From Oscillospiraceae bacterium (GTDB taxonomy: Bacteria; Bacillota; Clostridia; Oscillospirales; UBA929), in assembly GCA_009782385.1 (NCBI GenBank), contig WRJE01000009.1, forward strand, positions 1 through 45,626: a DNA stretch of 45,626 bases. Direction: 5' to 3'. The position numbers were made by a program, and so were the translations under genes. This document shows, piece by piece, positions 4,769-43,864 of the stretch. The notes beneath the pieces were generated by a model. It was not told where the DNA came from and did not search any database. It saw nothing but the letters and a program-made list of their open reading frames with translations. Position 1 is the first letter of the stretch, and the number at the start of each line of letters is the position of its first letter.

Positions 4769-4816
4769 GTAGGGGCGGCTATTAGCCGCCCGCGGACGAC
4801 CAAAGGTCGCCCCTAC
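4769..4816 (+). repeat. Dispersed palindromic repeat (GTAGGGGCG...CGCCCCTAC), composite
   Basis: Outer 9-bp arms GTAGGGGCG and CGCCCCTAC enclose two smaller hairpins (GGGCGGCT/AGCCGCCC and CGACC/GGTCG). It lies in the 93-base gap between iorB and asnS, transcribed with them unless it stops transcription. There is no T-run, so it is not a typical intrinsic terminator. Confidence 0.85.
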
Positions 4817-29956: not shown

Positions 29957-29979
29957 CGCGCAGCCTCTCTCTTTAAAGC

Positions 29980-30100
29980 GGTCGGGCATGTAAGCCCGAC
30001 CCTACGTAAAACGCGGATTTGTAGGGTGCGGCTTCCATGCCGCACCGTTAATTTAGGATATTGACATATAAAACGGTGCGCCGAGGGCGGCGCACCCTAC
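29980..30100 (+). repeat. Three palindromic GTAGGG-type repeats between eno and sigF
   Basis: Element 1 (29980-30005) is inverted: GGTCGGGC, loop, GCCCGACCCTAC. Element 2 (30021-30046) is direct: GTAGGGTGCGGC, loop TTCCAT, GCCGCACC. Element 3 (30075-30100) is inverted: GGTGCGCC, loop GAGGGC region, GGCGCACCCTAC. They fill the 160-base gap between the converging eno and sigF genes and may end both transcripts. Confidence 0.85.
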
Positions 30101-31707: not shown

Positions 31708-31737
31708 GTAGGGGCGGGTTTCCATGCCCGCCCCTGC
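31708..31737 (-). terminator. Palindromic GTAGGG repeat acting as probable terminator of the SpoIVB-type gene
   Basis: GTAGGGGCGGG, loop TTTCCAT, CCCGCCCC. Read on the minus strand the hairpin is followed by TACAATTTTTTG, a T-rich tail, directly after the end of the peptidase gene (31751). It is also one copy of the dispersed repeat. Confidence 0.65.
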
Positions 31738-32715: not shown

Positions 32716-34380
32716 ATGAGAATAGGAAGTTTTGTTCCGCCGAATAATAACAATAACGCCGAGACCGCAGAGCTTACCGGGCGCGGCGACCTTGACGCGC
32801 CGCCTGAAACCTCCGCAGAAGGTGAAGAAGCTGTTTCGCGTCAAGGCGGCAGACCTTTACGCGCGACCATTGACCGTGCCGTTAATATAAGTGAGGTAGT
32901 TAAAGCCTTTCAACTGCCGGACACACCGTCCGTGCGCGGTTTAGTTGCCGAGATGGCACGCGGCGGAGTTGAAATCAATCAGCAAAATTTATCAATTTTA
33001 TCTAGGGCTGTCGATGCTGGTCTCGCGCCGGAGCAAGCCGTGTTTATGGCGCGTGAAGGTATTCCGATAAACGCCGCGAATATCGAACGTTTTCAACTTT
33101 TCCTTGAACATAAAAACCTTGTGGGCGAGCAGCTGTCGCAGATTTTGGAACAACTGCCGGAAGAAATAAAACAAACAGTCTCCGAACAACAACCTACAAC
33201 ACAAATCGTAGGGCGCGGCATCCCTGACGCGCCGTCCGTATCGGCACAACCTCAATCCGCGCAACCGCTAACAACCGAACAACCCATTCAAACCATACAA
33301 CCTCAACAAATAGTCCAAACCCCCGAACAACCCCCAATATTACAACAGCAAATACCCGAAAAAAACATACAAACTACTCAACCGCAACAACCCGCAAACT
33401 CACTTCAACCGCAACCATCGGCAACCGTCCCCAACGCGCCGCCTACCCTCGAACAACCCATTCAAACCGCACAACCGCAACAAACAACGCAAACCCCCGA
33501 ACAACCTGTTCAATCCGCGCAATCTCAAACCCCCGAACAACCCGCAACCGTCCCCGTAGGGCGCAACGCCCCCGGTGCGCCGTCCATACCCGCGCCGTCT
33601 TCCACCGCACAACCCGCGCAAATCCTCGAACAATCTATTGAAACCGCACAACCGCAACAAACAACAGAACAATCTACAACCTCAACCGTAGGGCGTAACG
33701 CCCCCGGTGCGCCGCCCATACCCGCGCCGTCCGCTCCAGCAACACCCGAACAACCCTCTGTAATTACAGTCGAACAAAAAATAATCTCGCTGTTCAAAAA
33801 AGTAGACCCCAAAAACCCTCACAAACTGCCCAATGAGCTCAACGCGCGTGAATTGGCGCGTGAATTAGACGAGGTAATCGAAACAGTCAGACAAAAACTG
33901 CCCGAACTCGAACCAAGCAGAAGGGAAGCACTTGCCAAAGCCGTGAACGAGTTGGAGCAGAGTGTAAAATTTCTTGATAATATGAACAGATTCACCCCCA
34001 TCGTCAACATACCCCTGCAATGGGGAGGGGAGCGCACGACCGCCGAGCTTTATGTGTTCAACGACTCGAAAGGCGGCAAAAAAATAGACCCTCAGAACGC
34101 CACGGTATTTATTTCGCTTATGACCGCCAACACCGGGCGAGTGGAAACAATGATAAAGGTCATCGGTAAAAGTGTTGAATGTGATTTCAGCGTTGACTCG
34201 CCGGATGCCGTTGATTTGGTACGCGGTGAAATGCACATCCTCTACAAATTGTTGGATTTACAGGGATATAAATTAGCGCGGACATCGGCGCAGGTCGCGG
34301 AAAAGACCGCCGACATCCTCGATGTGTCCAAAGCGCGTGAACAGCAAATGAGCCGTTACTTTTTTGACAGAACGGTATAA
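32716..34380 (+). CDS. Flagellar hook-length-control (FliK/YlqG)-like protein with Gln/Pro-rich repeats
   Basis: 554 residues from ATG 32716, preferred over an earlier in-frame start because GGGGTGG precedes it. Residues about 155-350 are Gln/Pro/Thr-rich (many EQPxQTAQPQ units). The C-terminal part (about 425-510) contains IPLQWGGERTTAELYVFNDS and DPQNATVFISLMTANTGRVE, resembling the C-terminal domain of FliK-like proteins such as Bacillus YlqG. It is followed by an FlhB-C-domain-like gene, the same pairing as ylqG-ylqH. No flagellar genes are nearby. Four copies of the dispersed palindromic repeat lie in frame at residues 21-30, 165-174, 281-290 and 325-334. Role inferred only. Confidence 0.7.
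   Translation: MRIGSFVPPNNNNNAETAELTGRGDLDAPPETSAEGEEAVSRQGGRPLRATIDRAVNISEVVKAFQLPDTPSVRGLVAEMARGGVEINQQNLSILSRAVDAGLAPEQAVFMAREGIPINAANIERFQLFLEHKNLVGEQLSQILEQLPEEIKQTVSEQQPTTQIVGRGIPDAPSVSAQPQSAQPLTTEQPIQTIQPQQIVQTPEQPPILQQQIPEKNIQTTQPQQPANSLQPQPSATVPNAPPTLEQPIQTAQPQQTTQTPEQPVQSAQSQTPEQPATVPVGRNAPGAPSIPAPSSTAQPAQILEQSIETAQPQQTTEQSTTSTVGRNAPGAPPIPAPSAPATPEQPSVITVEQKIISLFKKVDPKNPHKLPNELNARELARELDEVIETVRQKLPELEPSRREALAKAVNELEQSVKFLDNMNRFTPIVNIPLQWGGERTTAELYVFNDSKGGKKIDPQNATVFISLMTANTGRVETMIKVIGKSVECDFSVDSPDAVDLVRGEMHILYKLLDLQGYKLARTSAQVAEKTADILDVSKAREQQMSRYFFDRTV
32776..32805 (+). repeat. In-frame palindromic repeat, copy 1 (encodes TGRGDLDAPP)
   Basis: ACCGGGCGCGGC...GACGCGCCGCC with stem GGCGCG/CGCGCC. 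Residues 21-30 of the FliK-like protein; the leading GTA of the consensus is ACC here. Confidence 0.6.
33208..33237 (+). repeat. In-frame palindromic repeat, copy 2 (encodes VGRGIPDAPS)
   Basis: GTAGGGCGCGGC...GACGCGCCGTCC with stem GGCGCG/CGCGCC, residues 165-174 of the FliK-like protein. Nearly the same as the intergenic copy at 34388. Confidence 0.8.
33556..33585 (+). repeat. In-frame palindromic repeat, copy 3 (encodes VGRNAPGAPS)
   Basis: GTAGGGCGCAAC...GGTGCGCCGTCC. The stem is GGCGCA/TGCGCC, a compensatory change relative to copy 2. Residues 281-290. Confidence 0.8.
33688..33717 (+). repeat. In-frame palindromic repeat, copy 4 (encodes VGRNAPGAPP)
   Basis: GTAGGGCGTAAC...GGTGCGCCGCCC; stem GGCGTA/TGCGCC with one G-T pair. 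Residues 325-334; almost identical to copy 3, so the two may have arisen by a local duplication together with the flanking Gln-rich codons. Confidence 0.8.
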
Positions 34381-34387
34381 CCATGTT

Positions 34388-34413
34388 GTAGGGCGCGACG
34401 ACCCCGGCGCGCC
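34388..34413 (+). repeat. Palindromic GTAGGG repeat after the FliK-like gene
   Basis: GTAGGGCGCGAC...CGGCGCGCC, stem GGCGCG/CGCGCC, eight bases after the stop codon. It is the noncoding twin of the repeats inside the gene. Confidence 0.75.
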
Positions 34414-34455
34414 GCTATATAACCGCCCGTATTTATAACGTTAAGGTGATTAAAA

Positions 34456-34743
34456 ATGGACGAAGAAAAACGCAAACAACTAAAAGAGGCAGTCGCGCTG
34501 TCCTATGAGAATGAGGACTCCGCTCCAACGGTAGTTGCTGCCGGACGCGGAAAAGTCGCGGAGAACATTATCGCGAAGGCGCAGGAGGCAGGCGTGCCTA
34601 TCCATGCCGATGCCGATCTCGCCCACGCTCTCAATATGCTGCAAGTAGGGCAGGAGATACCAATCGAGCTGTATAACGTTGTGGCACAGGTGCTGATTTA
34701 TGTCCGAGATATTGATGAACAGCAAGGAAGAAAAAATTCGTAG
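34456..34743 (+). CDS. FlhB C-terminal-domain-like protein (EscU/YscU/HrcU family, YlqH-like)
   Basis: 95 residues equivalent to the cytoplasmic C-domain of FlhB: AVALSYENED, PTVVAAGRGKVAENII, AGVPIHADADLAHAL, and EIPIELYNVVAQVLIYV. It lacks the membrane part and also the NPTH autocleavage motif, the protein beginning just where the segment after cleavage would. Similar to Bacillus YlqH (FhlB), whose role is unclear. Stop codon TAG is within a GTAGGGCGCGG repeat fragment. ATG follows TTAAGGTG. Pairs with the FliK-like gene upstream. Confidence 0.85.
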   Translation: MDEEKRKQLKEAVALSYENEDSAPTVVAAGRGKVAENIIAKAQEAGVPIHADADLAHALNMLQVGQEIPIELYNVVAQVLIYVRDIDEQQGRKNS

Positions 34744-34750
34744 GGCGCGG
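34740..34750 (+). repeat. GTAGGG repeat fragment providing the FlhB-like stop codon
   Basis: GTAGGGCGCGG, left arm of the dispersed repeat, without a clear right arm. The TAG inside ends the FlhB-like gene; the context TTCGTAGGG is the same as at the end of the symporter gene (1110-1117). Confidence 0.55.
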
Positions 34751-34761
34751 GCAGAAAGTGA

Positions 34762-43807: not shown

Positions 43808-43833
43808 GTAGGGTCGGGCTTCCATGCCCGACC
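43808..43833 (+). repeat. Palindromic GTAGGG repeat
   Basis: GTAGGGTCGGGC, loop TTCCAT, GCCCGACC; a clean copy of the dispersed repeat, three bases after the hemerythrin-fusion stop codon. Confidence 0.85.
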
Positions 43834-43864
43834 GTTTTATATGTTTTATATGGACATAAACAAC

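Follow-up and report, generated by a model that had tools for sequence, protein, structure and literature searches.

Dispersed GTAG-type REP hairpins as translated peptides in the linker of a clostridial FliK-like protein and as paired internal segments of RAYT genes

The window considered here is the whole of contig WRJE01000009.1 (45,626 nt) from an Oscillospiraceae MAG (GCA_009782385.1), and its features are collected in Table 1. The FliK-like identity proposed by the first-pass annotation, which was made from the sequence alone, is supported by a C-terminal Pfam Flg_hook domain (residues 454–529, E 1.3e-8) and by the neighbouring flagellar export gene. The domain is preceded by a Pro/Gln-rich linker at approximately residues 155–350, and the reading frame closes with TAA at 34378–34380.

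Five copies of a palindromic repeat, four within the gene in a single frame and one past its stop, had been recognised at this locus, and all of them are present. Each coding copy is read from codon position 1, yielding TGRGDLDAPP, VGRGIPDAPS, VGRNAPGAPS, and VGRNAPGAPP, in agreement with the peptide formula V/T-G-R-x-x-x-x-A-P-S/P given earlier. The exchange of GGCGCG/CGCGCC for GGCGCA/TGCGCC in the stem is a true compensatory change, and the stop ascribed to the closed frame is found where the TAG of the head is in register. All five copies fold with at least 5–6 outer pairs (−10.6 to −14.3 kcal/mol), the stem of copy 33688 bearing one G–T wobble. The repeat occurs at every site described. 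In four of the five copies GTAG heads the hairpin at its 5′ foot, but copy 32776 has ACCG in place of the head. With up to three mismatches allowed, the window holds six consensus matches versus 0.08 expected from dinucleotide shuffles.

Table 1. Genes and REP elements in the window, with parS loci of the same-genus MAG G002 in the last line (bits, covariance-model score)
Feature	Position	Strand	Remarks
Intergenic HH pair of shorter REPs	4769..4816		GTAGGGGCGGCTATTAGCCGCCCG + inverted partner
Intergenic REP, different stem subtype	29979..30005	-	GTAGGGTCGGGC...; 34.4 bits
Intergenic REP, left arm of GTAG-outside (HH) dimer	30021..30047	+	41.2 bits
Intergenic REP, right arm of the HH dimer begun at 30021	30074..30100	-	39.5 bits
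Intergenic REP	31708..31734	+	GTAGGGGCGGG...; 31.2 bits
FliK-like gene	32716..34380	+	554 aa; orthologues in relatives
REP copy 1	32776..32802	+	reads TGRGDLDAP; head degraded (ACCG); 31.0 bits
REP copy 2	33208..33234	+	reads VGRGIPDAP; 38.8 bits
Possible REP remnant (TVP-NAP), putatively internally deleted	33424..33447	+	
REP copy 3	33556..33582	+	reads VGRNAPGAP; 38.9 bits
REP copy 4	33688..33714	+	reads VGRNAPGAP; copy 3 and flanks locally duplicated; 35.9 bits
REP copy 5, intergenic	34388..34414	+	7 nt 3′ of the fliK stop; 40.5 bits
FlhB-C-terminal-like (FhlB) gene	34456..34743	+	TAG stop from truncated REP head (GTAGGGCGCGGGC at 34740; 34740-34752)
Intergenic REP, immediately after gene end	43808..43834	+	GTAGGGTCGGG...; 38.1 bits
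parS loci of G002	L135 (C38:429-930), L128 (C11:15897-16314), L129, L130-L140		

The repeat unit is a dispersed REP element of the GTAG, RAYT-associated type. The covariance-model search of the genome suggested in the first-pass annotation was performed with a model (R1) built from 14 copies; it returned more than 150 matches in the window's own genome, a lower bound, and 152 in a 788-kb sample of stretches from this fragmented MAG. A simpler rule, GTAGGG followed by a hairpin, finds 322 sites in the same sample, as against 13 with GGGATG and one with CTAGGG as the anchor. The copy number is high and mostly extragenic, 200 of the 322 hairpins being intergenic according to a simple codon-usage-based gene caller applied to the fragmented assembly. 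The elements are GC-rich imperfect palindromes of 6–9 bp with covarying stem subtypes and many stem variants genome-wide, and an associated RAYT gene (L002) is present in the genome, though with a 24-nt hairpin subtype. The 26-mer of FliK copy 33208 recurs letter for letter in 12 other copies of the sample, and all copies of this 26-mer together are divided into five intragenic and eight extragenic ones. Of the 63 intragenic copies of any kind, 34 have an identical 26-mer outside genes.

These observations bear on the simplest explanation, namely that a GC-rich Pro/Ala/Gly linker grew by slippage and became palindromic by chance, with no mobile element involved. The linker is indeed repetitive, and copies 33556 and 33688 share their flanks (67% and 74% identity versus a null mean of 33%; empirical p 0.012 and 0.005) and are therefore a local duplication, while the flanks of 33208 and 32776 are not shared. 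However, linker drift does not account for identical 26-mers between genes and within structured genes of no relation to fliK, or for the retention of the hairpin with its GTAG head, against which the two control anchors give so few sites. As a full account it is extremely improbable; it is refuted as the origin of the unit and holds for part of its multiplication within fliK.

In-frame copies in other genes, whose count had also been suggested, are numerous and lie in genes unrelated to fliK. About 62 GTAGGG hairpins (approximately 19% of REPs in the 788-kb sample) fall inside ORFs. A further 55 straddle a gene boundary, the REP's own TAG serving as the stop codon in 47 of these. The hosts include genes for DnaX, dihydrolipoamide dehydrogenase, an E2 acyltransferase, TrpF, TrpC, an amidase, a WYL regulator, a hybrid histidine kinase, and Jag/KhpB, as well as prophage genes, terminase among them. 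Since 89% of the sample is coding but only 19% of the hairpins are in ORFs, genes are strongly avoided, and polar and small residues are enriched around the sites that are used (0.65 versus 0.575 at random sites, p 1e-9). The intragenic load is lower in relatives (G002, 5 of 78; G014, 2 of 52; G009, 7 of 102), which rules out a high load as a general trait. A prophage-like region of the genome (L071 and L070, contig C6, approximately 33–52 kb) has a heavy load of in-frame REPs, and one 584-aa ORF in it contains at least four, in both orientations.

Same-strand copies are read predominantly in one frame: 22 of 23 matches to the 27-nt model are in frame 0, as are 13 versus none for the GTAGGGCGC type and 27 versus nine for all GTAGGG types together. 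On the opposite strand, the three frames are used 10:7:9, so that the idea of dispersed REPs favouring both frames used in RAYT genes is half true, valid for the same strand and without preference on the other. Frame 1 of the 27-nt GTAGGGCGC type is arginine-rich; therefore, ordinary selection suffices to explain the frame bias.

Host genes with alignable orthologues bear on how the copies arrive. TrpF has about six additional residues exactly at the REP compared with three relatives and with PDB 1lbm, i.e., a net gain. In lipoamide dehydrogenase, about seven residues have been exchanged for nine (VGRGIPDAP where a relative has QGRTESG) with the flanks retained, so replacement occurs too. In TrpC (L085:18387-19322, minus strand), the 15-nt stretch TTCCCCTTTGAAAAA between two inverted REPs repeats the adjoining host sequence, in what resembles a footprint of an insertion or template-switch mechanism. 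Both the exchange in lipoamide dehydrogenase and the spacer of the TrpC dimer, which repeats its flanking sequence, would suit gene conversion or template switching between hairpins, by which an existing loop is replaced, rather than transposition into an empty site. Such a process requires a resident hairpin, but none is found in the loops of the orthologues, and it does not predict the net gain in TrpF; we regard it as unlikely to be the main route. For fliK itself no empty orthologous site has been demonstrated, because the linkers of the other relatives are unalignable.

The earlier picture of a mobile palindrome residing in the linker holds in so far as the unit is a dispersed REP with identical copies elsewhere, but not in respect of four separate insertions into FliK: 33556 and 33688 form a segmental duplication, and in the same-genus G002 a REP-coded VGRDAHGAP occupies the site equivalent to that of the N-terminal copy. 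The REP near the FliK N-terminus is probably older than the split from the sister species. A search for named relatives by means of the FliK protein yielded none. The more distant G009 and G014 have other REP hairpins in the FliK linker, in opposite orientation, three in the former and about 12 in the latter. In the G014 orthologue (L014, contig C109), the roughly dozen GGRxNPAP-like units correspond to one REP hairpin in reverse orientation and have apparently spread through tandem duplication.

The recurrence of REP-like hairpins in the same gene of G002 (at the N-terminus), G009, and G014, together with the compensatory change in the stem, might mean that fliK is under selection to keep the hairpin or its peptide. 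The copies would then be functional, acting, for instance, as mRNA hairpins that retard translation or as a device for tuning the length of the FliK ruler. The length of the linker could matter for the FliK hook ruler. This explanation is nevertheless very unlikely, as the peptide, number, orientation, and position of the units vary among relatives, a different palindrome fills the linker of G002, and dozens of genes with no relation to fliK contain the same hairpins. With high probability, the FliK units are instead GTAG REPs spread by a RAYT-type system and tolerated as peptide inserts, in part duplicated locally. Such REPs are 24–27-nt hairpins of single-stranded DNA, headed by GTAG, and belong to the type that RAYT (TnpA-REP) Y1 transposases bind and cut. 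According to this scheme, a REP landing in the open frame of a gene would add an insert of 8–9 residues (V-G-R-x-x-x-x-A-P on the same strand), which would survive in a linker or a surface loop, while in the closed frame its TAG would become a stop codon. The FliK linker would have gained at least one or two REPs, one of which was multiplied when the low-complexity sequence around it was locally duplicated. The identity and dispersal of the hairpin, its reading frames, the further host genes, and the occurrence of RAYTs are observed directly; mobilisation by a RAYT and near-neutrality of the peptide are what we infer from this pattern.

Two Y1 proteins are encoded in the window's own genome, one IS200-type (L001) and one RAYT-type (L002). 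The L001 locus (G000:C10:4023-7382) holds the IS200-type TnpA beside a gene that, as judged by reading of its sequence, appears to be IscB-like (RuvC/HNH). L002 and its relatives match Y1_Tnp (PF01797) slightly above the cut-off and possess the HUH motif, as RAYT (TnpA-REP) proteins do, and the sole PDB sequence match of the RAYT is 4er8. Within the reading frame of L002 there are two inverted REPs, read as VGARIARP and GRAMRAPT, which flank the NHVH motif; the pair lies inside the ORF rather than on either side of the gene as in a REPtron. Six more RAYTs from five relatives (two in G001 and one each in G002, G009, G014, and G021) all have internal REPs, with both arms in five of them and only the forward arm detected in that of G002.

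A wider, genome-wide scan was seeded with an alignment of REP-bearing RAYTs, and its frequencies refer to the best 80 of 522 loci and not to RAYTs at large. These 80 loci are mostly clostridial but also come from Spirochaetes, Synergistaceae, Chitinispirillales, Chloroflexi, and others. Among the 79 intact ORFs at these best loci, a forward hairpin is found in 53, at 36–60 residues (typically about 42) before HUH and in frame 0 in 50 cases; a reverse hairpin is found in 62, at 8–28 residues past HUH, with 54 hairpins in one frame and nine in another; and 48 ORFs have both arms. Synonymous-codon shuffles give expectations of 2.0, 3.3, and 0.05, respectively. In the same 79 ORFs, the two arms have a median identity of 96% within a gene versus 58% between genes, there are 39 distinct forward hairpins, and only 15 loci have REPs of their own type within 500 nt of the scanned region.

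A structure model of the own-genome RAYT (pLDDT 88.6, pTM 0.83) places the REP-coded residues 41–48 in a predicted loop between strand 20–28 and helix 52–67, and residues 94–101 in a predicted loop between the HUH strand (82–89) and helix 102–117, both loops being among the least confident regions of the model. The closest solved fold is again 4er8 (E 6.9e-9), a RAYT bound to a REP hairpin, in which six residues of the reverse-REP loop are missing in the sequence alignment.

REP subtypes encoded in RAYTs are also found as dispersed copies. The L195 RAYT carries GTAGGGCGCGACGACCCCGGCGCGCC, read as VGRDDPGAP, whose 26 letters are those of window copy 34388, and the RAYT of G002 carries VGRGILDAP. 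In eight genomes whose RAYT has GTAGGGCGGGGGCTTGCYCCCGCC or a near variant, 8–75 copies were counted, versus 0–4 in eight genomes with other RAYT hairpins, apart from one with 23, mostly two-mismatch variants. Of the GTAGGGCGCGACGACCCCGGCGCGCC type carried by the L195 RAYT, the window's own genome has 58 dispersed copies, with 23 in G002, 117 in G009, 76 in G014, and 23 in the genome of L195. A REP-type RAYT was found in five of the six relatives with at least 60 model matches (G000, G002, G009, G014, and G021), while the majority of REP-poor genomes yielded none. The exceptions are G012, with 63 model matches and no RAYT found, and G001, with two RAYTs and only three matches; in addition, the hairpin of the own-genome RAYT is of a different, 24-nt subtype, the 27-nt subtype being found in the RAYTs of G002, L195, and L232.

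On balance, we lean slightly towards the view that, in a large, mainly clostridial RAYT clade, the transposase gene itself is the REP donor: both hairpin substrates would be coded in two loops beside the HUH strand, the arms would switch subtype together, and the VGRxxxxAP of FliK would be a transplanted RAYT loop peptide. If this is true, the REPs of these bacteria are protein-coding in origin. It also gives a specific twist to the RAYT/REP problem, as the protein sequence of the transposase has to encode its own DNA substrate twice. Several questions become testable: how a RAYT lineage switches its REP when this requires a joint change of both arms and of two loops of the protein, at which places new REPs are seeded, and whether recognition depends on the loop peptides.

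Rickettsia RPEs are small palindromes that occur in frame in many genes and are tolerated there. The comparison with them made in the first-pass annotation is apt. The elements of the window, too, have identical copies that are read in frame in numerous other genes, with a preference for polar or linker-like surroundings. The two differ in that RPE-4 and RPE-6 have a CGTC head and no known dedicated transposase (PMC3733652), whereas the present elements are headed by GTAG and have RAYTs in the lineage. GTAG REPs have been described as having a GTAG head and a 6–9-bp stem, forming HH, TT, or tandem pairs, being mostly intergenic, and often supplying a TAG stop (Di Nocera et al. 2013, PMC3733652); intragenic copies, including possible linkers and DNA-replication genes, and REPs that flank RAYTs or overlap their ends were reported there as well. 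The head, stem, pairing, use of the TAG as a stop, and presence of some copies in ORFs are common to both sets; here, however, a single clostridial-type MAG has approximately 19% of its REPs in ORFs. The terms “Firmicutes” and “Clostridi” are absent from the main text of that paper (PMC3733652), and REPs at conserved sites within the RAYT gene were not found described in it. The FliK case illustrates well, in a group that has been little described, a phenomenon that is already known, and clostridial bacteria join the clear cases in which a mobile palindrome has repeatedly been made into protein, both in linkers and in loops of core enzymes.

The arrangement inside the RAYT gene is what a specialist would find surprising. 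An earlier study stated that every RAYT gene lies between two inverted REPs and, applying this criterion, recovered such genes from gammaproteobacteria only (Nunvar et al. 2010, PMC2817692). The clostridial systems resemble such REPtrons in the Y1 HUH transposase, the inverted cognate REP pair changing in step, and the dispersal of the same REP, but REPs flank the gene in REPtrons (PMC2817692), while here both are part of the ORF and code for two loops on either side of the HUH strand. Single-stranded REP is cleaved by TnpA-REP at CT or CA beside the hairpin (PMC8266576). REPINs (Bertels and Rainey 2011, PMC3116915) are inverted REP pairs with a short spacer that disperse as a unit, and HH pairs are common here, but in FliK each copy is a lone REP and all share one orientation. 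The mainly open-access literature searched contained no description of REPs at conserved positions within RAYT genes, so that the arrangement is a candidate novelty. For annotation, peptides resembling VGxxxxRP or GRxxxAPT should raise the expectation of translated REPs.

Finally, another palindrome is abundant in the same-genus MAG G002, where the ParB centromere palindrome TGTTTCACGTGAAACA (parS) occurs 35 times without mismatch, as compared with at most six times in each of 244 other genomes of the order. Five copies are read in frame (NVSRET) in the FliK linker of G002, about eight lie within one 309-codon open frame, and a larger palindrome, AAATGTCGCACCC...GGGTGCGACATTT, encloses many of the intergenic copies.
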